A program made the translations under genes and the position numbers. Under the pieces are notes generated by a model. The model was not told the DNA's origin and made no database searches. It saw only the letters and a list, made by a program, of their open reading frames with translations. DNA of 64,000 nucleotides from Cantharellus purpuraceus (Eukaryota > Basidiomycota > Agaricomycetes > Cantharellales > Hydnaceae): the NCBI GenBank assembly GCA_025174535.1, contig JALBUN010000005.1, positions 744,001 through 808,000 of the forward strand. The letters are read 5' to 3'. Shown in pieces: positions 9,311 to 50,805 of the stretch. Position 1 is the first letter of the stretch. Each line of letters opens with the position of its first letter.

Positions 9311-10287
9311 ATGCCTTCTGCTGAAGAACTTTGCCAGCAACGCCCCAAGTTGGACAAATCAATCGTGGAGGCTGATGCCATAGAGAAGAAGAAGGCAGAG
9401 GAGGAGAAGAGGAAGAAGAGGGAGGAGGCAGCTCATGAGAGGGCCGCTGAGGTCGCCCAAGTTAGGGCAGAGGCCACAAAGAAAAGGGCCTTGATGAAGG
9501 TGGTTGCAAAAGGCAAGGAGGTTGTCCAGGACCTGGACAAGGAGTCCAAACTGGATCTCATATGCAATACATGCATCAAGCGTGATGATGTATGTGAGTG
9601 GGCAATGGTGAGTGAAACAGTGACTGGATGTTTGTCTCATACTGATTATTATTATTATTATTTTAGAAAGGAAATTTTCATTCCTGCCTCGTGTGCCAAA
9701 CTAATCAGCTGAAATGTGAGGTGAAAGGTAGTGCTCTGCCACATTGAAAATGTGATTGTGAAGAGGGCAGCAGTGCAGTGGAAAACCCTCCCAAGCATCA
9801 GAGGACTAGGACCATGTCCATGGGTCCCGCCATCAATCCTGTACCAACTGCCTTGGTAGAAGCCATGCAGGATGTCAGTATTAATGTGGCCATGGTGGCT
9901 CATTGATTAATCAAGGTCTCCAGGCACACCAAAGGAATGAATGTGGCTCTCCAGGGGATCGAGGCTCACTTGGGTGAGCTTGCTGGAATGTTCCACATCT
10001 ATACAATGGGATGGAGGTGGAGTCTGCTCCAAGGGGAGTTGGATGCATCGGAGCTGGAAGCTCTGGGCACCATATATGACATGGACTCAGACTCCACAGG
10101 ATCTTGGGATTCCTTGGAGAATTTTGATAGGTTGGATGATGAGAGGTGGTGGCCATGGGAGGAGATAGACAGGATGATTAGGGAGCAGGAGCTGGAACTG
10201 GAGATTTTGGAGAAGGAGGGGACTGTGGATGGAGGGTTGGGAGATGAGGAGTCAGATGTAGGAGAGTTGGAAATTGTAGCGGAGTGA
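9311..10287 (+). pseudogene. Accessory Zn2Cys6 coiled-coil gene of family B, antisense to pol, with intron
   Basis: Read antisense to B gag-pol, between the 3' LTR and the chromodomain. Exon 1 is 9311-9607: a K/E/R-rich coiled coil, then C-N-T-C-I-K-R-D-D-V-C. An intron, 9608-9666 (GTGAGT..TTTTAG, 59 bp), joins in frame to exon 2 from 9667, giving C-L-V-C-Q-T-N-Q-L-K-C. After splicing the cysteines are spaced C-x2-C-x6-C-x10-C-x2-C-x6-C, the pattern of fungal Zn(II)2Cys6 DNA-binding domains. TGA stops at 9745 and 9903 break the frame. The remaining frame runs to TGA 10285-10287 with a very acidic tail. No other part was matched to a known protein; DNA binding is inferred from the cysteine spacing. 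Confidence 0.75.
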
Positions 10288-19042: not shown

Positions 19043-22000
19043 TTATACATTGTGTTTCCTTTTCCCCTTCCCCTTCCCCTTATCTACCTCAGGCTCCGTC
19101 TCCGACGCAGTCTCCGACTCATCATCACTCTCTACATCTGACACCCAATCTTTCTCATCCCCCATGTCTGAATCCTCGTCCAAAGGGGCCATGAACTTCC
19201 GCAGCCAACGTAACTCAGCAGTCCGCCGACCCTCCAGAACCTCCTGCCATTTCATCGTCTTCACCAAGTCCACTAGTAACCCCTCTGTCCGCCGGAGGTG
19301 CTCCGACTGCAGGTTAACCAGCCGGATAAGCTGGCCCATGGTACTGTTGGGTGCAGAGACGTGCCCCATACCTGCACCGGTCGTTGCCCCTTCCAATCTG
19401 ACACCACTACCCCCAGCTGCCACAGCACCCGTTGTTTTGGAACCCGCAAAATTATGGTGTTAGGGCAAACTCTAAATCACCACAATTCCGTGAATGAACA
19501 GCTGAGAAGAATATCAAACCCTGCTGCAGCACAACTCCAGAAACAATTTAACGTTTGTACTTTGGTTACAATCCTTTGTATTGGTCAATGCAGACTATAC
19601 GCAGAAAGGTAATACGTTTCTTAGCAGCAAGAAATGAATAAGACTTCCAGAGTCTAGAGTTCACGGACGCTTAGGGGTCCAGATATTCCAAAAAGAGGGG
19701 AATGCACTTAGAGGCTAAAGGAAGTAGGTGGATGAATCCAACCGTCCAACCAGTGGCACTCAGAAGCGGGTAACAGCAATGTGTGAAGTAGTCTAGCAAC
19801 TGCTTCACACGAGTTCAAGCTTCTAATGCTCTGCAAAGGCAGTACACACTAGTTACTTAAACAAGAGCACTAATGGCAGGACTATCGACAGACAATCTCA
19901 CCCTGTAGATTCGTAGTCACGTGAGGCAGATACTACACTCACGCCCAAAGCAGGAATATCACTACTTCGAGTGCAATCAAATACAGTTACACAACTGTAA
20001 AAGATCCTTGAACTGGTAATCAACAGTTACTGAGATAGAGGATGACACTGTATGTCACTCTAGTCACACTGGTGTGCAGAAGATGGGTAGAATATGATGA
20101 TATGTTCCTCTTTCAGAGGCAGAATGGCCTCCTTATATATTGTATTTACAGGGGCTGACTAATGGTTCTGGAATATTCTACCTATTAATAGATGGAAACT
20201 ACTGGAAGGTTGTGGAAGGTGGAAGAAAGGGGTAGAATATTCCAAGCCAATCACAGGATCTGATCACAGCACTAACACTGATCAGGAGCTGAATAATGGT
20301 TCTGGAAAGTTCTATCTAATAATAGAAGGAAACAGCTAGAATGTTATGGAAAGGGGTAGAATATTCCAAGGCAATCACCTGATTTGATCACCCATCAGCT
20401 GATCTGATCCCTGAGCTAGGCACTGATCAGGCAAAAAGAAGGGTGTCCACCCTGTTTTCTGCACTGGTTTGCACAGCCATGGATAGCCACATGTCATGTG
20501 ATGATCTCCACGGAAAATAGTGCCCTGAGAGGCTGTGGTTGTTAAGTTACAGAATATTTATTGATCAGAGACATCTGAGCTTGAATTCAGGCCAAATGCC
20601 TGGTCCAAAAGGGGAGAGCCGGCTGCGCGAAGGTTTGTGGGCGCCTATGGGTCCACAACTGTAGCACAGCAGAAATAAATGATTCTGAGCTGAGTTCTGC
20701 ATGGAATATTCCCGAAAAAATATGGAAAAATAGAGAATATTTGAATAAGTCCATTCCAGGTACAAGCATCAAATATATGCTGATATTTAGGAATGGAAAA
20801 GCAAAGAATAGCACATTGGTGCTGCATAAATGGAATTTGATAGGGAAAAGGTGGTTCCCATACACCCGTCTCCGTCTGCCGCTTTTTGGTGGGACGACCT
20901 TCTGTTTCTTTCTCCACCCCTCCTTGTACCACTAGTTGGGGCTTGATGCTCTGACTCTGGGGATTGAACTTTCCATCGATCCTACACCCTCCTTTCTGAC
21001 CCCGACAACGATCACAGGACTGAAGGCGATGGGTTGGGCCGGTAGGCCACACACACTCCATGCCCACATCACAACACAAGTCGCAAGTTACGCCAGGCCC
21101 GCCGAATGGCTCTGCTGGAGCCAGAGCCTTGGGTGGTCTGCTCCTTCTCGACGTGGCCTCCAAGTGTTCCCTCTCCTCCTCCTTGTCCTGCTGTTCTGCT
21201 GCTGCCTTCTCCATCTCGCGCTTGTGAAGCTGGATTGCCGACCTAGCGACACGCAGCTCCTTCTTATGGGTTGCCAACACGCAACTCTCCGCTTTGCACC
21301 ATATGACCCTCCGATCCGCCTCCCACTTCTCTGTATCAGCACTCGGGTATGCCTTCAATGAAAAGACCGCAATGTCAAGATTCTTCTTGGTGGTAGCAGC
21401 ATAGAGCTCCGCCCTTTTGCGAGCCTTGACCGCGGCTACCCAAGCCATCTCCTCATAACAACCGAAGTCGGATCCGGCTCTGCATCCGTCCCGACATCCA
21501 CACCCACCTCGGGCTCTGCATTTGCATCAAGCTCCATATTGGCATCAGGATCCACCTCCACCTCCGCCCTCTCTGCCTCCGCTGCTTCATCTTCCTCAGC
21601 TGCACCCAACCCAAATAATGGCTGTGCCTGCGGACATAACGGCGAGTCCACCGCAGTGACAGTTGTTGGACGAGCTGTCTCCGTCTGCGTAACGGAGATG
21701 ATGGTGACCTCGGGGGTCCCTGTCCATATAGGCACAATCGTCAGGCCCCAGTCACCTCCTCTACCTCCATGGCGGCTTCTAGCTCGTGCGCCTGTTCCTC
21801 CACTTCCTTCAGTCTCGCGGCCTCCATTGCGGCCGCAAGTTCCTTGACCCTGCGGCTCTCTCGGCCTTCGCTTCCTCCTCTTTCCTTCTCTGTTCCATCT
21901 CCGCCGCCTCCTTCCGTCTCCACTCCTCCGCCTCCTTCCATCTCCATTCCGCCTCCTCCTCCTCCTTCCGTCTCCATTCTGCTTCCTCCTCCTCTTTCCA

Positions 22001-22114
22001 TCTCCGTTCCTCTTCCTCTTCCTTCCATTTCTGCTCCTCTTCCTCTTCCTTCCGTCGGGCCAAGAGCAACTGCTCAAGCTCGGCCACACTCATGCTTGCC
22101 AAAGGGTTCGACAT
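19043..22114 (-). pseudogene. A1 accessory Zn2Cys6 coiled-coil gene, antisense to gag-pol, split by C2
   Basis: Minus-strand gene between pol and the 3' LTR. An ATG at 22136-22138 lies too close to the TATAAAAGG box (22145-22153), so the start at about 22112-22114 (MSNPLASMSVAELEQ) is preferred. Regions in order: E/K/R/W coiled coil (to about 21800), acidic middle, a helical M-A-W-V-A-A-V..K-R-A-E-L block (21448 down), then the zinc cluster C-D-L-C-C-D-V-G-M-E-C ... S-C-D-R-C-R-G-Q-K-G-G-C, spaced C-x2-C-x6-C-x12-C-x2-C-x6-C (about 21000-21110). The C2 solo LTR interrupts at 19433-20864. The tail continues from 19423 to the stop at 19043 with an acidic run and a basic end (KGKGKGKRKHNV). Frameshifts occur in the coiled coil. 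All six cysteines are intact in this copy. The function is unknown. Confidence 0.8.
19433..20864 (-). mobile_element. Solo LTR C2 (family C, 1.43 kb), TSD CCCGT
   Basis: Read on the minus strand it starts TGTATGGGAACC and ends GGTTCCAAAACA; CCCGT flanks it at 19428-19432 and 20865-20869. It is nearly the reverse complement of C1 (22981-24413). It sits in the A1 accessory gene. A TATATAAGG-type box lies about mid-length. The open frames inside are short and unconvincing. Confidence 0.9.
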
Positions 22115-24687: not shown

Positions 24688-26445
24688 ATGTCGAACCCTT
24701 TGGCAAGCATGAGTGTGGCCGAGCTTGAGCAGTTGCTCTTGGCCCGACGGAAGGAAGAGGAAGAGGAGCAGAAATGGAAGGAAGAGGAAGAGGAACGGAG
24801 ATGGAAAGAGGAGGAGGAAGCAGAATGGAGACGGAAAGAGGAGGAGGAAGCAGAATGGAGACGGAAGGAGGAGGAGGTGGAATGGAGATGGAAGGAGGAG
24901 GAGGAGGAGGAGTGGAGATGGAAGGAGGAGGTGGAGGAGTGGAGATGGAAGGAGGAGGTGGAGGAGTGGAGATGGAAGGAGGAGGTGGAGGAGTGGAGAT
25001 GGAAGGAGGAGGCGGAGATGGAACAGAGAAGGAAGGAGGAAGAAGCGAAAGCCAAGCAAGCCTGCAGGGTCAAGGAGCTTGCAGCCATGATGGAGGCTGT
25101 GAGACTGAAGGAAGTGGAAGAGCAGGTGCACAAGCTAGAAGCTGCCATGGAGGTAGAGGAGGAGGTGACCGGGGCAGGGGCAACTAGTCACCTGGGGAGT
25201 CTGAGTGTGCCAATATGGGTGGGGACCCCTGAGGTCGCCATTATCTCGATTATGTGGACAGGGTTGACCCGTCTGACAACTGTTCCTACAGTGGACTCAC
25301 CGTTACATCTGCAGTCATGGCCGTTATTTGCGGTGGGTGTGGCTGAGGAAGATGACATGGCAGAGGCAGAGAGGGCGGAGGTGGAGGCGGACCCCGATGC
25401 CAATATGGAGCTCAACACAAATGTGGAGCCAGAGGCAGGTGGGGATGTTGGGACGGATATGGAGCCGGATCCCACCTTGAATTGCTATGAGGAGATGGCT
25501 TGGGTAGCTGCAGTCGAAGCTTGCAAAAGGGCAGAGCTCTATGCTGCTACCACCAAGAAGAACCTCGAGGTTGCAATCTTTTCATTGAAGGCACACCTGA
25601 GTGCTGATACTGAGAAGCAGGAGGTGGACCAGAGGGTCATATGGTGCAAAGCGGAGAATCGTGTATTGGTGACCCATAGGAAGGAGCTGCATGTCGCTAG
25701 GACAGCGATCCAGCTTCACAAGCATGAGATGGAGAAGGCAGCGGTGGAACAGCAGGACAAGGAGGAGGAGAGGGAGCACTTGGAGGCCGCGTCAAGAAGG
25801 AGCGGACCCCCCAAGGCTCTGGCTCCAACAGAGCCATTCGGTGGTCCCGGTGTAATTTGTGACTTGTGTTGTGATGCGGGCATGGAGTGTGTGTGGCCTA
25901 CCAGCCCAACTCGTCGCCTTCGGTCCTGAGATCGTTGTCAGGGTCGGAAAGGAGGGTGTAGGATTGATGGAAAGTTCAATCCCCGGAGTCAGAGCGTCAA
26001 GCCCCAACTAGTGGTACAAGGAGGGGTGGAGAAAGAATCAGAAGGTCGTCCAACCAAAAAGCGGCAGATGGAGATGGGTGCTGTGGCAGCTGGGGGTAGT
26101 GGTGTCGGATTGGAAGGGGCAACAACCAGTGCAGGTATGGGGCACGTCTCTGCGCCCAACAGTACCATGGGCCAGCTTATCCGGCTGGTTAACCTGCAGT
26201 CGGAGCACCTCTGGTGGACAGAAGGGTTGTTAGTGGACTTGGTGAAGACAATGAAATGGAAGGAGGTTCTGGAGGGTTGGCGGACTGCTGAGTTGCATCA
26301 GCTGCGGAAGTTTATGGCCCCCTTGGATGAGGATTCAGATCTGGGGGATGAGAAAGATTGGGTGTTGGATGTAGAGAGTGATGATGAGTTGGAGACGGAG
26401 CCTGAGGTAGACAAGGGGAAGGGAAAAAGGAAACGCAATGTATAA
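24688..26445 (+). pseudogene. A2 accessory Zn2Cys6 coiled-coil gene, one nonsense in the cluster
   Basis: A nearly open frame of about 585 codons antisense to A2 pol. The N-terminus is MSNPLASMSVAELEQLLLAR. A long coiled coil follows, with repeated E-W-R-W-K-E-E-V-E units (about 24880-25020). Next come an acidic middle, the M-A-W-V-A-A-V-E block (25495), and Q-Q-D-K-E-E-E-R-E-H-L-E before the cysteine cluster. The first three cysteines (C-D-L-C-C-D-A-G-M-E-C, about 25858-25890) are intact; the fourth is changed to TGA (25927-25929, TGT to TGA), so the domain is truncated. The frame continues with C-Q-G-R-K-G-G-C and the conserved tail V-G-Q-L-I-R-L-V-N-L-Q-S-E-H-L and ends KGKRKRNV at 26445. 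The upstream ATG at 24664 is possible but probably not transcribed. Confidence 0.8.
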
Positions 26446-31400: not shown

Positions 31401-32430
31401 TTAGTAGTGCCATCAAATAATTGGAGTGATATCGGTGTATGGGAACCACCTTTTCCCTATCAAATTCCATTTATGCAGCACCAATGTGCTATTCTTTGCT
31501 TTTCCATTCCTAAATATCAGCATATATTTGATGCTTGTACCTGGAATGGACTTATTCAAATATTCTCTATTTTTCCATATTTTTCCGGGAATATTCCATG
31601 CAGAACTCAGCTCAGAATCATTTATTTCTGCTGTGCTACAGTTGTGGACCCATAGGCGCCCACAAACCTTCACACAGCCGCCTCTCCCCTTTTGGACCAG
31701 GCATTTGGCCTGAATTCAAGCTCAGATGTCTCTGATCAATAAATATTCTGTAACTTAACAACCACAGCCTCTCAGGGCACTATTTTCCATGCAGATCATC
31801 ACATGACATGTGGCTATCCATGGCTGTCCAAACCAGTGCAGAAAACAGGGTGGACACCCTTCTTTTTGCCTGATCAGTGCCTAGTTCAGGGATCAAATCA
31901 GCTGATGGGTGATCAAATCAGGTGATTGCCTTGGAATATTCTACCCCTTTCCATAACATTCTAGCTGTTTCCTTCTATTATTAGATAGAACTTTCCTGAT
32001 CAGTGTTAGTCCAGTGATCAGATCCTGTGATTGGCTTGGAATATTCTACCCCTTTCTTCCACCTTCCACAACCTTCCAGTAGCTTCCATCTATTAATAGG
32101 TAGAATATTCCAGAACCATTAGTCAGCCCCTGTAAATACAATATATAAGGAGGCCATTCTGCCTCTGAAAGAATAACATATCATCATATTCTACCCATCT
32201 TCTGCACACCAGTGTGACTAGAGTGACATACAGTGTCATCCTCTATCTCAGTAACTGTTGATTACCAGTTCAAGGATCTTTTACAGTTGTGTAACTGTAC
32301 TTGATTGCACTCGAAGTAGTGATATTCCTGCTTTGGGCGTGAGTGTAGTATCTGCCTCATGTGACTATGAATCTACAGGGTGAGATTGTCTGTCAATAGT
32401 CCTGCCATTAGTGCTCTTGTTTAGGTTACT

Positions 32431-32958
32431 TGTTATGACTATATTCATTAACACCCAGATCCCCATCCGATCCCCTCAGATCCCCATGCATATGAAATCT
32501 ATACTCCATTTGGAAACCACTACGTCTCCATTTACCTGTCCGATTGTCACCGCCAATTCCGCCCATCCGTCTCCGGTTCCAATTGATGCATCAGCATCAC
32601 CATAGGAACCTGGACATCTGTCCCCATCGGACTCGGACATACTCACATAAGGCCATCGGCCTCGGAGACCCATCACCGGAGTAATTATTATTAGATTTTG
32701 AATATGTATTTAAGTTGCCTGACTGGGGACTTCATTCCCCAGTTCGAATATTGAATCATGCCTAGCTCCTAAGTCCAATCCTAACTCTCTAAGTCGTACT
32801 CTGTCTCCGAAATCTCGGACACCAGTATTAGTGAGGGCGCAGCACATAAGCTGAAGCCAAGTCCGTTCCGACCCCCACGATGTACTCTGACTCCGACCCA
32901 ACCTCCGACCCAACCTCCGATCCAATCTCTGACCCCAAATCGGACCTAGTGCGTAACA
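32431..32958 (+). mobile_element. A3 5' LTR
   Basis: TGTTATGACT to GTGCGTAACA (the 3' copy ends GTGCATAACA). A TATTTAAG box lies at 32707-32714. Confidence 0.95.
32740..32751 (+). promoter_or_regulatory. Predicted RNA 5' end, complementary to the primer-binding region
   Basis: CAGTTCGAATAT begins 33 bp after the start of the TATTTAAG box, where transcription should start. It is perfectly complementary to 32961-32972. Confidence 0.6.
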
Positions 32959-32960
32959 GT

Positions 32961-32972
32961 ATATTCGAACTG
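32961..32972 (+). promoter_or_regulatory. Candidate self-priming primer-binding site
   Basis: ATATTCGAACTG, two bases after the 5' LTR, pairs with 32740-32751. There is no TGG start expected for a tRNA 3' end complement at this spot. In A1 both partners changed together (CAGTTTGAATAT with ATATTCAAACTG). This fits the self-priming known for Tf1 and related chromoviruses. Confidence 0.6.
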
Positions 32973-32990
32973 CCACACTCACTCCTACCA

Positions 32991-34811
32991 ATGCCACGAT
33001 CCACCGCCAATTCCGAACGCACACGAATCGTCGAGGTACCCGCCCCCAGCATCGACACCATCCCCGAGGTCGTCGAGGAACCAACAGACCACATAGAGGC
33101 TGTCAATGAAGAAGACGACACCCCGCCCTCTCCAAATCTGGCACAAGCCATCTCCCTGCTCACTAGCAGCATCCGTAACCCACAAGCCCCTAAGTCCCAG
33201 ACCAAGGTCCGAGAACCCGACCCATTCGATGGCTCCAATCCGTGCAAGCTCCAGCCATTCTTGGTGCAATGCCGGTTGAATTTCCGCAATCGCCCTGACG
33301 CATTCACATCCGATCGGGCGAAGGTCACCTTTGCCATGTCCTATCTCAAGGGCACCGCACTGGACTACTTTGAGCCAGCACTCATGGACGACTCCGATGA
33401 CCCGATATGGTCAGAGGACTACTCCGATCAGTCCGTACAACCCCGAGGCCGATGCCGAGAATGAACTCAATCGACTTCGGATGAAGGAAAATCTCAAAAT
33501 CGCAAAATACATTGTGAGTTTCCAGCAGCTAGCTCCAAAAGTCCAATGGGGCGACGCCGCACTCCAACGCCAATTTTACGTTGGACTCCCATCCCGCATC
33601 AAGGATGAGATATCACGCGTCGGTAAGCCGGATACTTTGGCTACCCTTCACAAGCTCGCCCAATCCATCGACGCCCGTTATTGGGAACGTCAATCCAAGG
33701 TCTCCCACGAAAATTCGGCTAACAACAAATTGGACAAATCATCGGACAAAACTCCAAAGTCCAACAAGGGGTCCAATAAGCGGGCCACCGCCAATTCAGG
33801 CCAGAAATCAAACACTGGTAACGCTGCCACTTCCGGTTCCAGTCAGAACAACTCCAGCACCAGCAATAACTCCGGAGCTCACAAGAGTACTCCGGACCTC
33901 TCCACCAAGCTGGGAAAGGACGGGAAACTGTTGATTATGGGAGAAAGGGGTTAGGAGAGAGGGGGGACAGGAGCACATAGGAGGCTCAGGAGGTTGAGGG
34001 GGAGGTAGGAACGCGAGAGGAAATGGTTAGGAGGGAAGAGGAGAAGCCCCTGTAAGCTCCACACCCATCAGATTATTCTCCTATATTTCTTTTATATTTT
34101 ATTTCGTCATTTTTCCCCTATTGGCTCCACCCCCATTTCGTTTTTATCACAAGTTTCCTTCCCATGTTTCAAATGATTCAGGACTTTTATCACATGTTCT
34201 AAAGACACATATCTTGTATAAAACACGCTTAGCTAGATATGAAATGGATCAGAGAATTTACTCTCACTTGTTTTTGTTGACTGTGTCTGAACTACTTGTT
34301 TCTGGAATAACTCCAGAACGAACGCGTATTCTTACTATCTTTTGCATACTTCTCTAAAGTATTGCAACATCTATTCTAATCCCAGTTTGCGAAGCCTAAG
34401 CTCCACTGGTTGATTTTATATTAAGCATTTACTCTCATTCGAGTCATCTGCTCCTGATCCCTGCTCAAATTGTCAATATCTAGACGAGGACTACACCAAA
34501 TCTCATCAAATTTCGTACGAGGATACTCCCAAGATATATCCTCAATTCTACTACGCATACACCCAGTTCCCATCACTCCCTCTGTCATTATTTGAAATCT
34601 ACTCTCTACACCTCCCCAGCAAGGCGAAATTTTCAACAGAAACTTACCCAGCAGGAACGCCAGCACCACATGGACAACAACCTCTGTCTGTTCTGCGGAA
34701 AGCCTGGTCACCAAGCCAAGGATTGCAACAAGGCAACCTCGTCCGCAGCAAAGGCGAAGGGCTGCGCTGCCAACGCCACAATGGACAAGTCTGACACTAA
34801 AGCAACAGACC
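32991..34811 (+). pseudogene. A3 gag, with 26-bp deletion and solo LTR insertion
   Basis: ATG 32991 (MPRSTANSERTR). The gag domain is open to about 33424, where about 26 bp present in A1 (F-I-S-E-L-R-T-N-F-S region) is missing and the frame shifts. It continues in another frame to 33928, is broken by solo LTR D2 (33929-34638), and resumes with the zinc knuckle C-L-F-C-G-K-P-G-H-Q-A-K-D-C (about 34684-34727). The gag end has nine A's (34812-34820) rather than seven, fusing gag in frame with the protease. Confidence 0.88.
33929..34638 (+). mobile_element. Solo LTR D2 in A3 gag, TSD GAAAC
   Basis: 710 bp, TGTTGATTATGG to AATTTTCAACA, with GAAAC at 33924-33928 and 34639-34643. TGTTGA/TCAACA are inverted ends. 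It is distantly related to the solo LTR at 2513-3335. Confidence 0.92.
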
Positions 34812-34820
34812 AAAAAAAAA

Positions 34821-35332
34821 TAGTAAGCAGTCCTATAGCCTCCGTACGGGCTGAGGGCTGCGTTGGTACTCCCCGTACGACAGATGAGGTCCACCTGAAC
34901 GCATCCGCTCTTTTCCACTCCGACTCCCTTACCCTCCTCGTCCACTCCGACTCCCTTACCCTCCTCGTCCACTCCGACTCCCTTACCCTCCTCGTCCACT
35001 CCGACTCCCTTACCCTCCTCGTCCACTCCGACTCCCTTACCCTCCTCGTCCACTCCGACTCCATTCCCGATACCACTATTCAAGCATTAATTGACTCCGG
35101 TTCTACTCACTGTTTCCTCAATTCCTCTTTTTCCAATTTACATAAACTCCATACATACACCATAACTCCGATACCACTCTGATTATTTGACGGCACTACT
35201 AATGCTGTTATTTCACGAGCTATAGATCTGTCTATCCGTTTTTCTGTTGGAGAAATCCAGACCCTTACATTCTATGTTACTCCGCTTGACTCCAGCTGTT
35301 CTGTGGTCCTCGGACATAACTGGCTCACCCAC
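34821..35332 (+). pseudogene. A3 protease region (pol N-terminus)
   Basis: Reads I-V-S-S-P-I-A-S from the gag/pol junction. A 9-residue repeat follows (see the minisatellite entry), then A-L-I-D-S-G-S-T-H-C-F with an intact DSG active site (about 35085-35115), then V-V-L-G-H-N-W-L (about 35307). A TGA lies at about 35180 where A1 has CAA. E2 interrupts at 35333 and pol resumes at 36760. Confidence 0.88.
34917..35060 (+). repeat. 27-bp minisatellite in A3 pol (HSDSLTLLV x5)
   Basis: Five near-exact 27-bp units encode H-S-D-S-L-T-L-L-V, followed by H-S-D-S-I-P-D. A1 (15295-15350) and the 1.8-kb copy have a single unit. The expansion keeps the reading frame. Confidence 0.9.
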
Positions 35333-36759
35333 TGACGAGCCAGGACGCATCGAGGACGTATATCAAACCACTCTGACAGTCCAACTCCACCAGCGTCTTT
35401 TCATACCAACCTTTAAATAGCGCCACAACTCCCTCTCCACCTCAGTCTCTAATTCTAGCCATCGATCGTCACTCGTGTTTCATCACCATTGATAATTATC
35501 AGCCTTCAATTCACACCAATCCTTTCATCATCATTCACATGGCTTCCAATTCTATTCCCCTCTCCAACATCTCTTCTAATAATACGTCACACTGGTCTCT
35601 GGACACAGAGGACTATCAAAAATATGCTGAGCTCCACAGGCATGTTAAGCCACCTCCACATGTCAAAATACTTCCAAAACTCTTTCAATGTCCAAGATCC
35701 CCACCATGTCTCTCTTATGCCATTGGCGATCCCATATTCTTTCACAATTCCGTTGAACCATATACATTCCTCAGCATTTCACCTCTATATCGTAACACGG
35801 ATAGACGAGTCAAACGTGAGGTAGAATTTCAGTCACCATCGCCGACCTATCCTCCCACTTCAATCTGACTCAGGTTACATCGTGTCAGGCAAAGGGACCG
35901 AATACCCTTGGAACAGGATACCATATGGAGACAGATCACTAAGACAATAAGGAGTATTTGTTGTGGATGCTGACTGAAGTCCTCATGTGACTCAGGGTCA
36001 ATTTACCTTCGGAGCCGTATGGAAGATGGTATTGGTGGATGTTTCTATTGTTCTTTTATATGACTCACCCCTGTTTCATCTTTTAATTCATTCATACATG
36101 ACTTACTCATCCTTGTTCTATTTTTGGTTCTTTTATTACTCATCACCCCCTATTCTTACAAAGATTACCCCTATCTGTCGCTTCATTTCTCCACGATTTC
36201 CCCATTAGTAGTTCAACTTCACATGCTTTGTCAGCTGGCTTGATCAGCATTTCTTGCATCATATTGCATCATTTGCTCTTCATATTGTGTCGTTGTGCCC
36301 TGGGGATTTGTATATAAAAGGGTGCTAGTTTTCGCCTTTGGAAGGAATCAACAAGTTTTCAGCCAACGCTCTAAAGTCAAAGTCCACGCTCTAAGTCTAC
36401 GCTCTATGCTCTACATCACAATCCATCATCTCTACACTAAGGTAAAGCACCTTGGTTCCACGATCAGATTTCCCTCCTCCACCAAGAGGTCGCTTCTCTT
36501 GAAACCAGCTTTCGCATACCTCCCAACCGGGCTATCCATTGTCATCCAGTCACAGAGCACAATCAGCCATCAGGACCGACCTTTTGCTCCCATCCTCATC
36601 CAACCACAGAGCACTATTCCACTTCCCTGTTATTGAGTGCTACCTCTACCCCTCGACCTGATTGATCTTTGGAGTGCTGAACAACTGCGTTACACACTGT
36701 CTGTTTGCTAGGACCGTTGCGCGCAGGCTTATAGGATCTATTCCTTAAGCGAACCAACA
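35333..36759 (+). mobile_element. Element E2 in A3 pol, 4-bp TSD CCAC/CCGC
   Basis: 1427 bp, TGACGAGCCAGG to GCGAACCAACA. The flanks CCAC (35329-35332) and CCGC (36760-36763) match the empty site CACCCGCTAC in A1 with one transition. Nearly the same as E1, including the ORF at 35539, which here stops after 109 residues. Confidence 0.88.
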
Positions 36760-39700
36760 CCGCTACAATCCGTTGATTGACTGGGCATTGGGCCATATCA
36801 CGTTCCGTTCTCCAGTACAGGCTGTGTCATCCCCGACGTCACCAGCAACTATAGGTGCGAAATTATCTTCCGCCTCCGCTGACTCCGCTCCAATAGATAC
36901 TCCATCTACCCCTCCATTTATATCGATGGTGGACGCTATGGTCTTTGCCAGACTAAGCAAGCTGGACGGTTCTCACACATTCCAGGTCCACCTCTCCGAC
37001 CCGATATTCCTCGCCGCTCGTTCTGCCCGATCCACTCCACCGGACCTCTCTATGGTTCCCAAGGAGTATCATGAGTTCGCCGACGTGTTCAGCAAGTCTA
37101 AAGCTGACTCCCTAGCAGAACACTGACCATATGATCTCAAGATCGAACTGGATGACAACCCCACCCCTCCACTTGGCCCTATCTACTCGCTATCACAAAA
37201 AGAGCTACTGGCTCTCTGAACATTCATAGATGAGAACTTGGCCACGGGCTTCATCCACCCATCCCTATCTCCTCATGGAGCTCCGGTCCTATTTGTCCGC
37301 AAAAAGGACGGATCACTCCGTCTATGCGTTGACTTCCATGGGCTCAACAAGATCACCAAGAAAGACCGATACCCGATACCCCACACTGCGGACCTACTCG
37401 AGAGTCCTCGAAAGGCTAAGATCTACTCCAAAATAGATCTCCGACATGCCTACCATCTAGTCCGTATCCGAGAAGGCGATGAATGGAAAACGACCTTCTG
37501 CACACAATATGGATCTTTCAAGTGGTGCGTCATGCCCTTTGGACTAACCAATGCTCCGGCCGCCTTCCAGAGGTTCATGAATGATACCTTCGCCGACCTC
37601 CTCAATGTGACTGTCCTTGTTTACTTAGACAACATTCTGGTATATTCGGACAACGAAGAAGAACATCAGACACATGTCCGAGAGGTACTCCGACGTCTCC
37701 GAAAGCATGGCCTCTTCGCCCGCGCTGACAAGTGCGAATTCCACTCCGACTTGGTCGAATACCTAGGCTATATCCTCTCCCCGGCAGGATTGACAATGTC
37801 CGATGACAAAATCAAAGCCATACAGGAATGGCTGGAACCCCGGAAAGTCAAGGACGTACAGTCCTTCCTAGGGTTCGCCAACTTCTACCGCTGCTTCATT
37901 CACAGCTACTCCGATATCACTGTTCCGCTCACCCGACTCACTAGGAAGGGTATCCAATGGAATTTCACTGACAAATGTAGACAGAGTTTTGAGACCTTGA
38001 AAAAGGCCTTTACTTCCGCTCCGATACTGACTCATTGGGTTCCAGACGTTCCCATCCTATTAGAGACCAACGCCTCTGACTATGCACTTGCCGTGATCCT
38101 GTCCATCATCTCTCTGGATGACGGACAAGTCCATCCGATCGCTTTTCACTCACGTACATTTATGCCCCCTGAACTGAACTATGACATCCATGACAAAGAG
38201 CTCCTTGCCATATATGAACCCTTCCGGATATGGAGACACTACCTTGAGGGTCCCTCCGATCCGGTGGATGTCATAACGGACCACAAGAACTTGGAATACT
38301 TCTCCACAATGAAACTGCTCACCTGGAGACAAGTCCAATGGTCCGAATACCTATCTCAGTTCAATCTCATTATCCGTTTCCGTCCAGGTCGACTTGGAGC
38401 AAAGCCCGACGCGTTAACTAGACGCTGGGACATCTACCCTAAAGAGGGGAGTAGCGACTATGCCACTGTAAACCCACACAACTTTTGTCCTGTGTTCACT
38501 AACGAGCAGCTGGCATTGTCCCTACGAGCATCCACCCTCATGACTCCCACTCTCCGAGCTGTCATCATTATGGACATTGACCAACTCCACTTTGACATCC
38601 ACTCATCACTCCGATCTGATCCTGTTGCGGTTAAACACTTGGACAACCCTTCTGATCCGAAATGGTCACTTAACACCGAAGGGCACCTCCGACACAACGG
38701 CCGGATATACGTCCCCGACGCCAACAGCCTCCGACTCTGAATTTTGGAGTATTATCATGATCACCCAATCTCTGGCCACTTCAGGCAAAATCGCACACAA
38801 GGATTAATCCGATGAGACTACATATGGCCAAAAATGCGGGAATACATTCAACACTACTGTAACTCCTGCACCACGTGTATGTGCTCAAAATCACAAAGGC
38901 ACAAACCCTACGGAACGCTTAAGCAACTTCCGATCCCAGAGCAACCATGGAACTCCATCTCCATGGATTTCATAGAGAAGCTCCCCCCATCGCTCGGATA
39001 TGACACCATACTCGTGGTTGTCGACAGGTTCACCAAACAGTCCCTATTCATTCCAACACATGACACCATCACCTCCGCCTCACTAGCTAAATTGTTCGTT
39101 CTCCACATATTCTCTAAACATGGAGTCCCATCGCATGTCACGTCTGATTGGGGCTTGGAGTTCGTATCCTCCTTCTTCCGCACATTAGGAAAGGCTCTTG
39201 ACATGAAGCTTCATTTCACCTCCAGATACCACCCTGAAGGAGACGGACAAACGGAACAAATGAATCAGTCCCTGGAACAATATCTCCGAATCTATTGTAA
39301 CTATCAACAAGACAACTGGGCTGATCTACTTCTGATCGCAGAGTTTGCCTACAACAATGCTCCAAACGCGACTAACAGCATCTCTCCGTTCTTTGCTAAT
39401 AAAGGCTACCATCCAAACATCTCCGTCCACCCCGAAAAAGAACTTGCCTCCACCAAAGCCCGCCAATTCGTAACCGACCTTGATCAACTACACCAACATC
39501 TCCGAGAGACCATCTCTGATGCTCAGAAACAATATCAAGTCTCCACAGACCGACACCGCATTCCAGCTCCAGACCTGCAAATCGGAGACAAAGTATTCGT
39601 TAAGGCTGAACACTTCTGGACCACCCATCCATCGAAGAAACTCTCCGAGAAATACTTAGGTCCTTATGAGGTCATTGCTCACGCGGGCAGCAGGTCTTTC

Positions 39701-40042
39701 ACCCTCCGCCTCCCGGACCACTTCCAAGCAGTTCATCCAGTCTTCCATATATCAATGCTCAAACCTGCCACTACAAATGAGATCTCTGGTCGCACACAAC
39801 CTCCCCCTCCCCTGATCATCATCGAAGGAGACAATGAATATGAGATCTCTGAGATCCTGGACTCGAAGATCGACCGTCGATACAAGTGCAAGCTCCAGTA
39901 CTTAGTCAAATGGACTGGATATGAAGGCACCAATGAAGAGTCCTCATGGATCTCCACGTCTGAACTCGATCACGCATCTGAATCCATCTCCGATTTTCAC
40001 TCCGCTTATCCAGACAAACCTGGCCCCCTTATGAATCTTTAA
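36760..40042 (+). pseudogene. A3 pol: RT, RNase H, integrase, chromodomain
   Basis: Long open parts at 37238-38740 (500 codons) and 38834-40042 (402 codons). [38 protein letters not shown], then YLDN (about 37621-37635) in place of YLDD, so the second catalytic Asp is lost. RNase H: L-E-T-N-A-S-D-Y (first Asp changed to Asn), [11 protein letters not shown]. Integrase core: M-D-F-I-E-K-L-P, S-D-W-G-L-E-F, P-E-G-D-G-Q-T-E. Chromodomain E-Y-E-I-S-E-I-L-D..L-Q-Y-L-V-K-W-T-G-Y-E-G, stop TAA 40040-40042. TGA stops at about 37124, 37217, 38738 and 38814 fit CGA/CAA to TGA changes. Confidence 0.92.
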
Positions 40043-40254
40043 GTTCAATTACTAATGCTAATGTTATTATTTTGCATCATCATTTTATTACAAGTCAAGG
40101 GAAATTGCATGCCTGCCCAAAAAGCTCCGAAGGAATCACTCCACCTCATTTTTCTCCGTTCCGAAATTTATAATCAATTTCATTCTTATTTTATACATCA
40201 CGTTTCCTTTTTCCCTTTCCCTTATCTACCTCAGGCTCCGTCTCCGACTCCTCA

Positions 40255-41853
40255 TCACTCTCTACATCCGACACCCAATCCCATGTCTGAATCCTCGTCC
40301 AACGGGGCCATGAATTTCCGCAACCGACGTAACTCGGCTGTCCGACGACCCTCCAGAACCTCCTTCCATTTCATCGTCCTCACCAAGTCTACTAACAACC
40401 CCTCCGTCCGCCGAAGGTGCTCCGACTGCAGGTTAACCAGCTGGATAAGCTGGCCCACAGTGCTATTGGGCGCCGAAACGCGCCCCGTACCTGCACCGGT
40501 CGTTGCCCCTTCCGATCCGACGCCGCTACCCCCGGCTGCCACAGCACCCGTCTCCGTCCGCCTCTTTTTGGTCCGACAACCCTCCGATTCCTTCTCTGCC
40601 CCTCCTTGTACCACTAGTCGGGGCTTGACACTCCGACTCCGGGGATCGAACTTCCCATCGATCCTACACCCTCCTTTCCAACCCCGACAACAATTGCAGG
40701 ACCGAAGTTGGCGAGTTGGGCCGGTAGGCCACATGCACTCCACACCCACATCACGACATAAGTCGCAAGTTACGCCGGGTCCGCCAAATGGCTCCGTTGG
40801 AGCCAGAGCCTTGGGTGGCCTGCCCCTTCTCGCTGCGGCCTCCAAGCGTTCCCTCTCCTCCTCCTTGTCCTGCTGTTCTGCTGCCGCCTTCTCCATCTTG
40901 CGCTTCCAAAGCTGGATCGCCGGCCTCGCGACACGCAGCTCCTTCTTACGGGTCGCCAACACGTGACTCTCTGCCTTGCACCATATGACCCTCCGGTCCG
41001 CCTCTCGCTTCTCCGTATCAGCACTCGGGTAGGCCTTCAATGAAAAGACCGTGACATCGAGATTCTTCTTGGTGGTAGCAGCATAGAGCTCCACTCTTTT
41101 GCGAGCCTCGACCGCAGCTACCCAAGCCATCTCCTCGTAGGAATTCAAAGTGGGATCCGGCTCCGCGTCCGTCCCAACATCCACGCCCGCCTCAGGCTCC
41201 GCATTCACACCGAGATCCACATTGGCATCAGGATCCGCCTCCACCTCCACCCTCTCCGTCTCCGCCGCATCATCTTCCTCAGCTGCCCCCAACTCAAATA
41301 GGGGCCATGCCTGCAGATGTAACGGCAAGTCCTCCGCAGTGACAGTCCTCAAACGAGTCGTCTCCGTCCGTGTAACGGAGATGATGGCCACTTCCGGAGT
41401 CCCTGGCCGTATTGGCACACTTGGACTTCCTGGGTGGCTGGTTCCCCCTGCCCCGGTCACCTCCTCCTCTACCTCCATGGCGGCCTCTAACTCGTGCGCC
41501 TGCTCCTCCACTTCTTTCAGTCTCACAGCCTCCATCGCTGCCACAAGTTCCTTCACCATGCGGGCCCTCTCAACTTTTGCTTCCTCCTCTTTCCTTCTCC
41601 GTTCTGTTTTCGCTGCCTCTTTCCGCCACCGCTCCTCCTCCTCCTTCCGTCTCCGTTCCGCCTCCTCCTCCTCCTTCTGTCTCTGTTCCGCCTCCTCCTC
41701 CTCCTTCCGCCTCTGTTCCACCTCCTCCTCCTTCCGTCTCCGTTCTGCTTCCTCCTCCTCTTTCCGTTTCCGCTCCTCTTCCTCTTCCTTCCGTCGGGCC
41801 AAGAGCAACTGCTCCAGCTCGGCCACGCTCATGCTTTCCAAAGGGTTTGACAT
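40255..41853 (-). CDS. A3 accessory Zn2Cys6 coiled-coil protein, antisense to gag-pol
   Basis: The longest open copy: 540 codons from the ATG at 41875-41877, or about 532 from the preferred ATG at 41851-41853 (MSNPLESMSVAELEQLLLAR), downstream of the TATA box at 41884-41892. Order: E/K/R coiled coil (about residues 20-130), acidic middle (130-250), M-A-W-V-A-A-V-E helical block, second charged helix ending L-E-A-A-A-R-R, then C-D-L-C-R-D-V-G-V-E-C and S-C-N-C-C-R-G-W-K-G-G-C, spaced C-x2-C-x6-C-x12-C-x2-C-x6-C. Basic linker T-K-K-R-R, then V-G-Q-L-I-Q-L-V-N-L-Q-S-E-H-L and R-R-L-R-K-F-M-A-P-L-D-E. A short deletion relative to A1 (near 40280) replaces the acidic/basic tail with L-G-V-G-C-R-E. 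Zn(II)2Cys6 clusters usually bind DNA in fungal regulators; the role here is unknown. Confidence 0.8.
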   Translation of the reverse strand: MSNPLESMSVAELEQLLLARRKEEEEERKRKEEEEAERRRKEEEVEQRRKEEEEAEQRQKEEEEAERRRKEEEERWRKEAAKTERRRKEEEAKVERARMVKELVAAMEAVRLKEVEEQAHELEAAMEVEEEVTGAGGTSHPGSPSVPIRPGTPEVAIISVTRTETTRLRTVTAEDLPLHLQAWPLFELGAAEEDDAAETERVEVEADPDANVDLGVNAEPEAGVDVGTDAEPDPTLNSYEEMAWVAAVEARKRVELYAATTKKNLDVTVFSLKAYPSADTEKREADRRVIWCKAESHVLATRKKELRVARPAIQLWKRKMEKAAAEQQDKEEERERLEAAARRGRPPKALAPTEPFGGPGVTCDLCRDVGVECMWPTGPTRQLRSCNCCRGWKGGCRIDGKFDPRSRSVKPRLVVQGGAEKESEGCRTKKRRTETGAVAAGGSGVGSEGATTGAGTGRVSAPNSTVGQLIQLVNLQSEHLRRTEGLLVDLVRTMKWKEVLEGRRTAELRRLRKFMAPLDEDSDMGLGVGCRE

Positions 41854-41883
41854 CGTTGAGGATAAGACCTCAATCATGCCCCT

Positions 41884-41892
41884 CCTTTTATA
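41884..41892 (-). promoter_or_regulatory. TATA box of the A3 antisense accessory gene
   Basis: TATAAAAGG on the minus strand, about 100 bp inside the 3' LTR. It is identical to the boxes at 24649 and 22145. Confidence 0.65.
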
Positions 41893-41994
41893 TGTCTCCA
41901 GACCCCCAGTATAACTCCGACCGTGCCCAATCGTCTCACCTATTCAATCCACGGACATGAGGCCTCAGGGGCTTGGCCTTAAATGGAGAGATAC

Positions 41995-42522
41995 TGTTAT
42001 GACTATATTCATTAACGCCCAGATCCCCATCCGATCCCCTCAGATCCCCACACATATGAAATCTATACTCCATTTGGAAACTGCTACGTCTCCATTTACC
42101 TGTCCGATTGTCACCGCCAATTCCGCCCATCCGTCTCCGGTTCCAATTGATGCATCAGCATCACCATAGGAACCCAGACATCCGTCCCCATCGGACTCGG
42201 ACATACTCACATAAGGCCGTCGGCCTCGGAGACCCATCACCGGAGTAATTATTATTAGATTTTGAATATGTATTTAAGTTGCCTGACTGGGGACTTCATT
42301 CCCCAGTTCGAATATTGAATCATGCCTAGCTCCTAAGTCCAATCCTAACTCTCTAAGTCGTACTCTGTCTCCGAAATCTCGGACACCAGTATTAGTGAGG
42401 GCGCAGCACATAAGCTGAAGCCAAGTCCGTTCCGACCCCCACGATGTACTCTGACTCCGACCCAACCTCCGACCCAACCTCCGATCCAATCTCTGACCCC
42501 AAATCGGACCTAGTGCATAACA
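41995..42522 (+). mobile_element. A3 3' LTR
   Basis: 528 bp, TGTTATGACT to GTGCATAACA, preceded by purine-rich AAATGGAGAGATAC and followed by TTACT. Confidence 0.95.
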
Positions 42523-44093: not shown

Positions 44094-44238
44094 CTCTTTC
44101 TCACGCTTCTTCTGCTCCTCTTCCTCCTTCTTCTCTTCTCCTCCTCCTACCTCTTCCACTCCCTTCCTTTTTCCATCAGGTCAAGAGCAGAAATTGCTCT
44201 ATCTCAGCCATACTCATGTTTTGCAAAGGGCTTGACAT
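44094..44238 (-). pseudogene. 5' remnant of another antisense accessory gene
   Basis: On the minus strand it reads MSSPLQNMSMAEIEQFLLL from 44236-44238, then an early stop and a K/E/R/G-rich run. It clearly parallels the MSNPLASMSVAELEQLLLAR start of A1-A3. It is a diverged, fifth copy of the accessory gene, cut by the A LTR at 44093. Confidence 0.7.
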
Positions 44239-44330: not shown

Positions 44331-44610
44331 AGATGACTATCAATTGTCTGATGCCAGTAATTGTGAGTGGTTTTCCTTTATAGTATCATGTCCAAAAAAT
44401 TATGATGTTATGTACAGGCATTGTGGTGTGCATAAGGAAAGGAAATATACAGGATTTCATATATGAAATTCTAGTGCCTTCCCAATGCCAATTAACCTAT
44501 TTTCTCTCAACATGATCATCCGTTGTCTGATCCCAGTAAATGAGTGTTGTTTGTCTTTGCAGTACCAATCATAACCAAAAAAATATGATGTATATATACA
44601 GGCATTATAC
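44331..44610. repeat. Diverged direct repeat overlapping the 3' end of the ZIP gene
   Basis: About 95 bp at 44331-44425 recurs at about 44505-44610. Shared words are TTGTCTGATSCCAGTAA, TATGATGT and ACAGGCATT. The second copy reaches the ZIP stop codon, so the repeat boundary marks the edge between the repeat nest and gene space. Confidence 0.55.
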
Positions 44611-46445
44611 ACAGGTCCTCAAATATGTATTTGTATATACAGCAACTTTCTTGAGTACGTCGTGAACTCTGGAATATTCCCTGGTATTCGTTGATTTATT
44701 CAAGACCATCTTCACAACCAGACCACGATTCAGCATCGGGAAAAGCAGGAGAGAGAGAGGAATCACCCACATGCTAACAACGCCCATAGCCACCGTACCC
44801 AAAATCAAACTCCCAAGCCCCAACGCCTGCTTCCATACGCTAAGCTGCCGCATCTCGGGATCCATCACGAAGTCCCCCGCAAGCATCTCCACGGCCGCAG
44901 CATAGATTAGCATCCCCGCGCTCAAAGCGCACAGTAGGCCTTGCGTCAGCAACGATGTCTGGAGTTCCATCGATCCGCATACCACTGTGTTGACATCATG
45001 CTGTAGCGGCTGAACGAGGAAGTCGGGCAAGCTGAAGGTTTTGGCTGGTGAGGGGAGAAATACGAGGCCGAGGACTACGCCAACAGGCGCAGTGATGGCG
45101 AACAAGATACATAGGATAACAGGTAATATTCTCTTTGCGCGAGATCCGGAGGGTAAGGTGGATATACGGATGCCGAGTGACAGCCCCTCAAAGAGTTGGT
45201 GAAATACAAGCGCGGTTAATAGTGTGGCTGTCGGTCATCAATTATGACGGTCCATGTCTGAAAACTAGTATAGCTGAATAAGAGAAAACATACTGAAGTT
45301 GGCACCATCAGTGATGGACAGCGTGAGTCCGACGATTATCGAATGCAACATGATACCCAGTTGTAAGATCTGCCATTCCTCAGATTGAGAATCTTGACAA
45401 CTGTTTCCGTATCGAAATACATACCAAAATGCTGATAATCCTTGCCTTTCGGGGGGATTCGTGGGCAGCATCTGGACCATGCTCATGTGGATTTACGAGT
45501 AGGTCTGCGTCATCTGCTTCATCATTTGGAAGATGCATCGATGATATGCGATGACGGGGCTCTAAACGCGGCCCCGCTCGATGCTGATGGGCGCTCGGAG
45601 ACTCATGTCTAGAGCAAATGAATGAAATTTCAAAAAGGTCGTTGGATGACAACAGACCTGTGATGTCCAATAAACGACGAACGTCGACTCGGAGACAGTG
45701 GCGGATCCATGCGTGACGGGCGATGGTGATGACCCCCGGGAATATTGGGTTCATCAGATATAGGGACACGCGCGTCATCTAGCTGCTCGACGGCGGGTAA
45801 CGACTCGAATATTGGGTCATCGCGGTAAGGGGGAAAATGTGAATGGTAGTGCTCGATACTCGACCGGGATCTGCTATGACTGTGCGCGGCGGGTGATGGA
45901 GACATACGCTCCACGACAGCGGTGGAAATATCTGGCATGGCGGATAAGGATGGAAGGGATGGATATATAGAAGAGGAGGCGTACACTCAACAAGGAAAAT
46001 GGCTATGAATGAGGATAGCCTACAGAGTCCAACTATCAGTGATCAGTGTTTCGATATGTAGTAAGCATACACTATGGCGCCGGACCAATCCTTCCACTGG
46101 CCACCGAGACAAGGGCTGTTCAGACTCTCGAATCCCTCCTGCATGAGGTGAATAAATGCTGTTGAAAGAATCACCCCTACAGCGTCGTGCTCAAGATACA
46201 CGATCACAATATATGCTAGTCACAACCCTACCAGTCCCAAAATGTTTCCCAATAAAAAAAACAAGCTCTGGCGGCCCTATCCGCGGAACACGCTTTGCAA
46301 AAGACGGAAACGACGACGCTACCGCCGACACTAAAAGGATAATGCCCGCCCCGCCCAGTCGCCATGCAAGCGTTATTTCCAAGTCACCAGACCCACGAGA
46401 GTCTCTAGAGGTCGCGCACTGCAACGACTCCGAGGCGACTCTCAT
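44605..46445 (-). CDS. ZIP-family zinc/iron transporter
   Basis: Seven exons on the minus strand: 46445-46232, 46176-46071, 46019-45985, 45931-45658, 45608-45425, 45378-45294, 45227-44605. Introns are 46-66 bp, GT..AG. The joined frame is 506 aa. It is a polytopic membrane protein that moves divalent metal into the cytosol. TM I is R-L-G-G-A-G-I-I-L-L-V-S; TM II F-G-T-G-V-I-L-S-T-A-F-I-H-L-M; TM III S-F-I-A-I-F-L-V-E-Y-I-S. A His-rich loop (about residues 125-268) has HSHSRSRSS, E-H-Y-H-S-H, G-G-H-H-H and H-Q-H. TM IV/V carry the family signature: LGIMLHSIIVGLTLS and ALVFHQLFEGLSLGIRI, whose His residues line the metal path. Later segments follow to V-A-M-G-V-V-S-M-W. The last 50 residues are atypical; an extra intron there (GTGATT..ACCAG, about 44680-44750) is possible. 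The start is the ATG before TM I. Confidence 0.88.
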
Positions 46446-50123: not shown

Positions 50124-50217
50124 CCTCACAAAGAACGTCCTTTGCTTCAGCTCAACAAACACCGTTGATCTACCCCCAGCGTTTTCTGCTTCACCAGCTA
50201 CATTCAAACATTCAAAA

Positions 50218-50805
50218 ATGTTCTCCAAGATTCTTGCATTCTTCTACGTCCTCGCTCTCTCCAGCGTTTTCGTCTCTGCCACCGCGTCTTGCACTACGAC
50301 TACCGTCACGGCCGCACCTACTGCCACCAGTGTCTCCCAATGCAACACTAGTGGTGCAGGTAGGCACTTCGCTGACTGACAAGATATCAGCAACAATGCT
50401 AACGTCTGAATATTTCTTTCGTACCTCCCTAGGTCCCGCGCAGTGCTGCGTATTGACCGAGACCGCCAGCACCTACGGGACGACCTTGCTTGGCCTGCTC
50501 GGGATTACTGTATTGAACCCCAGCACGATCCTTGTTGGTCTGGGTTGCACGCCTATCCTGGCGTGCGTAAACTTCTATTACCCTGCTACCACCAGGTGTT
50601 TCACGTTTGACTTACATACATGATATGAATATAGCACCTCCCCTATTTGCCTCACGCAGAAAGCTTGCTGCACTGACAACGACTTCACTGGAATAGTAAG
50701 TACCATACCTGCTAGCGCTTTCCCTTTCTTTGCTCTCTGCTAGGTGTTCTTGACCTGACTGCTGCTGCTTAGGTCAATGTTGGGTGCAACAACCTCGCAC
50801 TCTAG
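50218..50805 (+). CDS. Class I hydrophobin
   Basis: Four exons: 50218-50359, 50433-50562, 50635-50695, 50773-50805; introns of 73, 72 and 77 bp. The joined product is 121 aa and should be secreted to coat hyphae or spores with an amphipathic layer. Signal peptide MFSKILAFFYVLALSSVFVS, then a T/A/S-rich stretch. The eight cysteines follow the hydrophobin order: C, CC (Q-C-N-T-S-G-A-G-P-A-Q-C-C), C (V-G-L-G-C-T-P-I), C (S-P-I-C), CC (K-A-C-C), C (V-N-V-G-C-N-N-L). Nine residues between Cys1 and Cys2 is slightly longer than usual. The long hydrophobic stretch between Cys3 and Cys4 (L-L-G-L-L-G-I-T-V) fits class I. The strong TATA box suggests high expression. The second donor is GTGCGT, chosen because it restores frame to Cys5. 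Confidence 0.92.

Follow-up and report, generated by a model that had tools for sequence, protein, structure and literature searches.

Our analysis of a 64-kb window of the Cantharellus purpuraceus genome (positions 744,001 to 808,000 of contig JALBUN010000005.1; the genome has 40.15 Mb in 50 contigs) showed that chromoviruses of one family, here called A, carry an antisense gene that is real and is maintained by selection about as strongly as the integrase. In element A3, the antisense frame (41877-40255 on the minus strand, 540 residues) opposes gag-pol and is flanked by the chromodomain open reading frame (ORF) and the 3' long terminal repeat (LTR). Its cysteines at residues 371, 374, 381, 394, 397 and 404 form the pattern C-x2-C-x6-C-x12-C-x2-C-x6-C. 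An initial annotation of the window had claimed such a frame at this place in A3, and the frame and its spacing were confirmed. The product is probably a zinc-binding accessory protein. With a probability of roughly 0.55, we favor the reading that the gene has its own TATA promoter and that its coil-rich, six-cysteine protein regulates the element that encodes it.

The evidence for selection comes from comparing residues 118-533 among 70 copies found in this genome (loci L009-L078). Copies were ranked by match score, with 80 of 1257 candidates scored, and the set therefore favors intact frames. The antisense frame has 39 stops in 29,020 codons, and none at all in 38 copies, against 428 to 1077 stops in each of the other five frames. 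The ratio of non-synonymous to synonymous substitution rates (dN/dS) is 0.314 over 2415 pairs, not near 1, the value that the annotation had named as speaking against a functional gene. It drops steadily with distance, from 0.63 at dS<0.1 to 0.22 at dS>0.4, a trend that fits selection on the protein as long as the family was active, with every inserted copy then decaying neutrally. The integrase-chromodomain frame gives 0.285 among the 28 copies with at least 150 codons, and shows a counter-result at the greatest distances, where it climbs to 0.39 and 0.46 in the last two bins (50 pairs). As far as substitutions can tell, this evidence shows that the protein matters to the element. The stops of the antisense frames are mostly CGA to TGA changes (28 of 39), which would point to CpG-directed decay in the host.

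The constraint is specific to one reading frame. The same DNA gives dN/dS of 0.43, 0.77, 0.85, 0.91 and 0.97 in the other five frames. The lowest of these values belongs to the sense frame whose third positions coincide with antisense third positions, and because of this alignment we used a frame-specific test of third-position changes present in at least two copies and felt by only one of the two frames. Transversions silent in the antisense frame alone amounted to 15/114, against 4/239 for those silent in the sense frame alone (Fisher p 2.4e-5), and transitions went in the same direction (4/11 against 0/9). Third-position changes thus follow the antisense code, and the antisense frame is the constrained one.

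The genomic setting of the gene is regular. The A family gene occurs at no fewer than 113 places in the genome, and all 30 loci retrieved with long flanks have an LTR upstream of it. Downstream, 29 of them have a convergent integrase; the remaining locus stops at the end of its contig. The gene had been annotated as 40255..41892. Its 40255 end stands, but 41892 is the first base of a TATAAA, and the start is better placed at the ATG at 41853, because the metagenomic homologues P0009 and P0010 begin with MSSSVENMS(I/V)ADIEKLL and align there to MSNPLESMSVAELEQLL of A3 (reading MSNPLESMS). Among the 63 of 70 loci with a located start and 150 nt of upstream sequence, the TATAAA lies exactly 39 nt before the ATG in 58 and within 60 nt in 61, and 60 have an A at position -3. 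Shuffling of the A3 upstream sequence placed a TATAAA within the final 60 nt in 78 of 5000 trials. The motif lies about 100 bp inside the edge of the LTR; the core of the putative promoter is therefore outside the LTR, unlike the antisense promoter of human T-cell leukemia virus (HTLV) as described in the review discussed below. At the other end of the gene, the last residues of A3 deviate: most other full-length matches stop at query residue 533 while their frames continue, and the antisense frames of other A copies are mostly somewhat longer than the 540 residues of A3.

From its sequence, the protein would begin with a coil rich in lysine and glutamate and end with a helix; between the two would lie a long central helix, the six-cysteine, putatively zinc-binding module and, after it, a basic run. 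The long helices are predicted with confidence by AlphaFold2, and a KKR-like basic run follows the cysteine cluster in 65 of 70 copies. Relatives are known as proteins alone: 36 were found by protein searches in metagenomes of the Joint Genome Institute (JGI), all listed without Pfam domains. They may represent fewer genes, because several are listed on contigs of equal size; P0016 and P0023, for example, each listed on a contig of 3806 bp, may be pieces of one gene. The 16 that span the module are 35-49% identical to A3, and 15 of them keep all six cysteines with the middle spacing of 12, the first cysteine being lost in P0015. Of the 161 columns that can be compared across these module-spanning relatives, identity reaches 90% or more in 33, and these include all six cysteines. 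None of 112 pattern matches on viral contigs codes for a relative. Six exactly spaced and nearly invariant cysteines make zinc binding likely. Other copies in the window had also been credited with the gene. A1 does keep its six cysteines, but its gene is split and its frame closed early; A2 has a stop inside the cluster; and a remnant at 44094-44238 retains the N-terminus and the start of the coil but no cysteine.

A second family, B, is represented by an element on the minus strand around positions 8.6-13 kb of the window. Its integrase part (10934-11520) matches that of A3 in inverted orientation with 72.7% DNA identity. A total of 96 genomic stretches match its antisense gene, and some copies account for two of them. 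The annotation had assigned to B six cysteines with a middle spacing of 10; this spacing is present in the window copy, but only after removal of a 59-nt intron (9608-9666). We examined nine copies, namely that of the window and L083-L090. The first triad, C-x2-C-x6-C, and a GTGAGTG donor 12 nt past it are found in nine of nine, and the second triad in seven. Without splicing, the triads are 87-91 nt apart and their relative frame varies between copies. Removing 57-61 nt, with a CTGAT branch-like motif and a TAG acceptor, leaves a gap of 30 nt in six of these seven copies and of 29 nt in L088. In L084, L085 and L088, another potential acceptor lies further 3' and would give 24-25 nt; the first, pyrimidine-rich acceptor was the one counted. 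These signals are those expected of a spliceosomal intron in a protein-coding gene on the antisense strand. The sense strand is not in splicing orientation, and genomic RNA should therefore retain the stretch. The A3 frame is continuous through the corresponding place. The first exon of the B protein has no BLASTP similarity to the A protein, and no self-match of the window (at least 150 bp, E<=1e-10) pairs the A LTR with the stretch left of the B gene. The claim that such elements encode an accessory protein of their own, maintained by selection and with the stated cysteine spacing, is supported in two families, whose LTRs are probably different.

How the protein might act can be outlined. 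The gene lies just inside the 3' LTR, presumably under its own TATA promoter and tail-to-tail with the integrase-chromodomain gene, and selection kept its protein while the family was moving. The six cysteines may bind two zinc ions. The basic run and the coils make it plausible that the protein enters the nucleus and binds nucleic acid there as a dimer or oligomer. By analogy with HBZ of HTLV-1, gene23 of Grande and TRP28 of Retand, we infer that it regulates its own element, through the LTR or the antisense output, in an HBZ-like or gene23-like manner. HBZ resembles the present protein as an antisense-encoded retroelement protein of the nucleus, a location that is predicted here, and differs from it by its promoter, which lies in the 3' LTR whereas the TATA is internal here, and by a bZIP domain in place of the six-cysteine module. 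A more elaborate version is tentative: a dimeric zinc-cluster regulator, encoded antisense with a dedicated promoter and set apart from Zn(II)2Cys6 by having its basic half second, would act in HBZ-like feedback, and in B its production would depend on splicing, which genomic RNA would escape. This is a well-conserved case, with a candidate metal-binding module, a mapped TATA, a sister family that bears signs of splicing and at least 113 genomic places. The production of the protein, its binding of zinc and DNA, and its target DNA therefore become directly testable questions.

Several observations weigh against the regulatory reading. The basic run is matched by a loose pattern only, and AlphaFold2 is not confident over the six-cysteine module (pLDDT, the predicted local distance difference test, is about 48-62 in one model and 33-42 in the other). 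Searches of Pfam and NCBIfam found no known domain above chance in the antisense protein, and a profile search of the PDB gave three weak matches (E 0.06-0.6), with no zinc cluster among them. Within family A alone, 212 of 416 columns are as conserved as the cysteine columns. Common transitions (10-50%) show only a moderate depletion of replacements: their ratio is 0.67 times the neutral one, compared with 0.10 times for transversions. The LTRs do not help either. No pentamer is more common in the A3 3' LTR than TCGGA/TCCGA (12 in 531 bp), which ranks first in 17 of 28 LTR copies, these analyses being based on matches of at least 450 bp in 28 of 30 loci. Its count exceeds that expected under Markov models of order 1 and order 2 (3.1 by order 2; 0/2000), but agrees with an order-3 model (mean 10.1; 629/2000). 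The pentamer is frequent in the integrase part too (7.3 per kb, against 14.3 in LTRs), and CpG retention, in the same set without L009, is 0.48 at TCGGA sites against 0.55 at other LTR CpGs (p 0.09). Compared with dinucleotide shuffles, CGG/CCG is modestly enriched (z 0.8-3.6 in the 28 LTRs). Binding of the LTR through TCGGA is therefore unsupported, since the order-3 model yields a similar count and the sites are not preferentially kept.

The annotation had likened the cluster to the fungal Zn(II)2Cys6 domain, whose general spacing is C-x2-C-x6-C-x(5-12)-C-x2-C-x6-C. The module has this spacing, but the expected profile match did not materialize. A set of 14 proteins, of which 11 include the whole module, gave no Zn_clus match (PF00172) at E<=10 in a search where the HMMER filters drop most weak matches, and the A3, A1 and A2 proteins gave none at E<=1. 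We also built a small canonical profile from eight domains, six solved and two of this genome. Used without filters, it gave family sequences 0.3-15.4 bits and, with E-values taken on a set of 17 sequences, recovered 12 of the 17 clusters at E<0.01. Compared with it by hhalign, the family profile reached a global probability of 2% and a best local one of 28%, the latter covering half 2 against canonical half 1 only. By residue scores, the second half, CDRCRSRKAGC for example, is similar to the basic first half of the canonical domain in 69/69 A copies, 9/10 metagenomic proteins and 7/7 B copies, one of the 70 A copies and three of 13 metagenomic proteins without a full cluster having been left out. 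The first half is nearer to the canonical second half in only 11/69, 1/10 and 7/7, respectively, and the swapped order scores better in 57/69, 5/10 and 7/7. A full swap of halves, judged by the residue scores of the first half and by the swapped order, is therefore clear in B alone. Mean net charges of half 1 and half 2 are -2.1 and +1.7 in A (69), 0 and +2 in the metagenomic proteins (10) and -0.6 and +1.4 in B (7); the basic half is the second one, not the first as in Zn_clus. Since there is no Pfam match and the profile-profile comparison is weak, the spacing is shared while membership in Zn_clus is not supported. From its sequence, we describe the module as one of six cysteines that has zinc-cluster spacing and in which the basic half comes second, and we leave it outside Zn_clus. 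It is like the GAL4-type domain in spacing, in having one basic half and in the helix downstream. It is unlike it in the missing Pfam match, in the place of the basic half and in lying at residue 371 of 540, whereas the cluster of GAL4-type proteins is usually near the N-terminus. The host genome itself has 19 exon-wise Zn_clus places, which, like the hydrophobin-like ORF noted below, fit a fungus.

These comparisons bear on the idea that the element captured a canonical Zn(II)2Cys6 transcription factor, which would overlap in function with the reading we favor and differ from it by membership. The identical cysteine spacing, the C-terminal helix downstream, the likeness of half 2 to canonical half 1 in nearly all sequences and the scores of the small profile, 15.4 bits at most, speak for it; the failure of PF00172 to match and the hhalign probabilities speak against it, and we regard it as unlikely. 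A stronger competitor accepts that the protein is kept and gives it another task, as a cofactor of replication or integration (nucleic-acid chaperone, nuclear import, chromatin tether) or as an antagonist of host silencing. The constraint does resemble that of the integrase, coils and a zinc module would suit a chaperone or tether equally well, and the LTR-binding test gave the regulatory reading no support. However, A3 already has a chromodomain, and its gag contains a CCHC knuckle (PF00098, E 2.1e-4, just over the cut-off); the chaperone and tether roles therefore have other candidates. We consider the cofactor possible, and would not put it higher than that.

Two alternatives remain. The antisense RNA could be the product that matters, through double-stranded RNA or interference with the sense transcript, the protein being secondary. 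Such a transcript would complement the 3' part of the genomic RNA, and a TATA box is conserved. Yet dN/dS well under 1, constraint specific to the frame, cysteines fixed across 35-49% identity and an intron whose removal restores the B frame all speak for a protein; the selection evidence largely refutes this explanation, which we hold to be improbable. Finally, the frame could be no more than a shadow cast by codon composition or by a sense product that overlaps it, the latter a concern that the annotation had raised. A wobble-aligned sense ORF of 303 residues (40055-40966) does overlap it and has the second-lowest dN/dS. But that sense frame has the 428 stops, neither this ORF nor the one at 41150-41914 has a Pfam domain, and the third-position changes, which track the antisense code, already refute the idea. 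Stops, dN/dS and third-position changes together rule out a sense-strand product as the cause of the frame, and a shadow of any kind is hardly credible.

Antisense genes at this place are of a known type. Zhao et al. (2011) reportedly described brtn as an antisense gene of Boty-like retrotransposons in Botrytis cinerea. In the available portions of the papers cited here, Boty is named among elements in which an antisense ORF separates pol from the 3' LTR (the aORF-3R class, whose function is given as not known; PMC7264820); brtn is an additional ORF of BcGypsy1 (PMC8365987); a Boty-like element with brtn has a gag-pol listing gag, ZnF_C2HC, reverse transcriptase (RT), integrase (IN) and CHROMO (PMC4227169); and a Monilinia transcript resembles Pol and BRTN (PMC5987419). 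Compared by these descriptions only, Boty and A3 are alike as fungal elements with a CHROMO gag-pol and an extra antisense gene. Extra ORFs of rotifer elements are treated in PMC5408684. Gene23 of maize Grande has a promoter upstream of the gene and a nuclear product (PMC7264820); it and the antisense ORFs of RIRE2 and PvRetro13 differ from ours in belonging to plant elements, and no six-cysteine module is mentioned for them in the available text of that review. In the plant element Retand, TRP28 antisense ORFs with predicted DNA binding occur in 97% of clusters (PMC11963269). Like ours, this antisense gene is found throughout its lineage, and its product, with a domain predicted to bind DNA, has been proposed to act as a regulator, but the domain is TRP28 (PF04195), its lineage is not of chromoviruses, and the word zinc is absent from the available text of PMC11963269. 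A look-up of the terms antisense and zinc in the available text of PMC3248453 and PMC2864245 found neither. No description of a six-cysteine antisense protein of an LTR retrotransposon was found in the literature searched, which lies mostly outside subscription papers and therefore cannot prove absence. The annotation knew of no description of such a gene in this position; position and orientation are of an already known type.

Table 1. Coordinates in the window of element A3, its antisense gene and the related genes of families A and B
Feature	Position	Strand	Remarks
Element A3	32431-42522		two 528-bp LTRs; target site duplication (TSD) TTACT on both sides
A3 5' LTR	32431..32958	+	10/528 differences from 3' LTR
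A3 integrase and chromodomain ORF	38834..40042	+	SH3_Tf2-1 1e-18, Chromo 4.5e-8, rve 2.6e-7; convergent with antisense gene
A3 antisense accessory gene	40255..41853	-	from preferred ATG 41853 to the stop of this copy; upstream in-frame ATG at 41877
C-terminal helix, possible dimerization coil, residues 473-523	40309..40461	-	AlphaFold2 helix 242-292 of the segment starting at residue 232
Six-cysteine module, residues 371-404	40666..40767	-	each cysteine in 69 or 70 of 70 copies
Long central helix, residues 286-352	40822..41022	-	AlphaFold2 helix 55-121 of the same segment; pLDDT 74-95 by blocks
K/E-rich N-terminal coiled-coil stretch	41488..41802	-	variable in length; copy alignments break or shift there
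TATAAA, putative promoter of antisense gene	41887..41892	-	39 nt 5' of ATG 41853; internal region, outside LTR
A3 3' LTR, 528 bp	41995..42522	+	10/528 differences from 32431-32958; TSD TTACT
A1 antisense gene	19043..22114	-	split by insertion 19433-20864; six cysteines intact; frame closed early
A2 antisense gene	24688..26445	+	stop codon inside cysteine cluster
Remnant of related gene	44094..44238	-	only N-terminus MSSPLQNMSMAEIEQFLL and start of coil; no cysteine
Family B antisense gene	9311..10287	+	element on minus strand; later stops in this copy
B first triad CNTCIKRDDVC	9563..9595	+	
B intron, 59 nt, GTGAGTG ... CTGAT ... TTTTAG	9608..9666	+	between the cysteine triads
B second triad CLVCQTNQLKC	9685..9717	+	

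Pfam also identifies RT and RNase H domains in A3. A repeat of 1-1.4 kb, found at 19433-20864, 22981-24413 and 31434-32430 and also within A elements, is 96-98% identical between places and is probably a separate mobile element. Comparison of the window with itself further revealed an inverted pair of related stretches, 54804-55476 and 58623-59309, which are 73.6% identical over 690 bp. Among the neighboring sequences, an ORF at 50165-50623 on the plus strand is hydrophobin-like (PF01185, E 1.2e-4, just over the cut-off), and a fragment at 44605-45105 on the minus strand resembles ZIP zinc transporters (PF02535, E 1.3e-7, below the cut-off).
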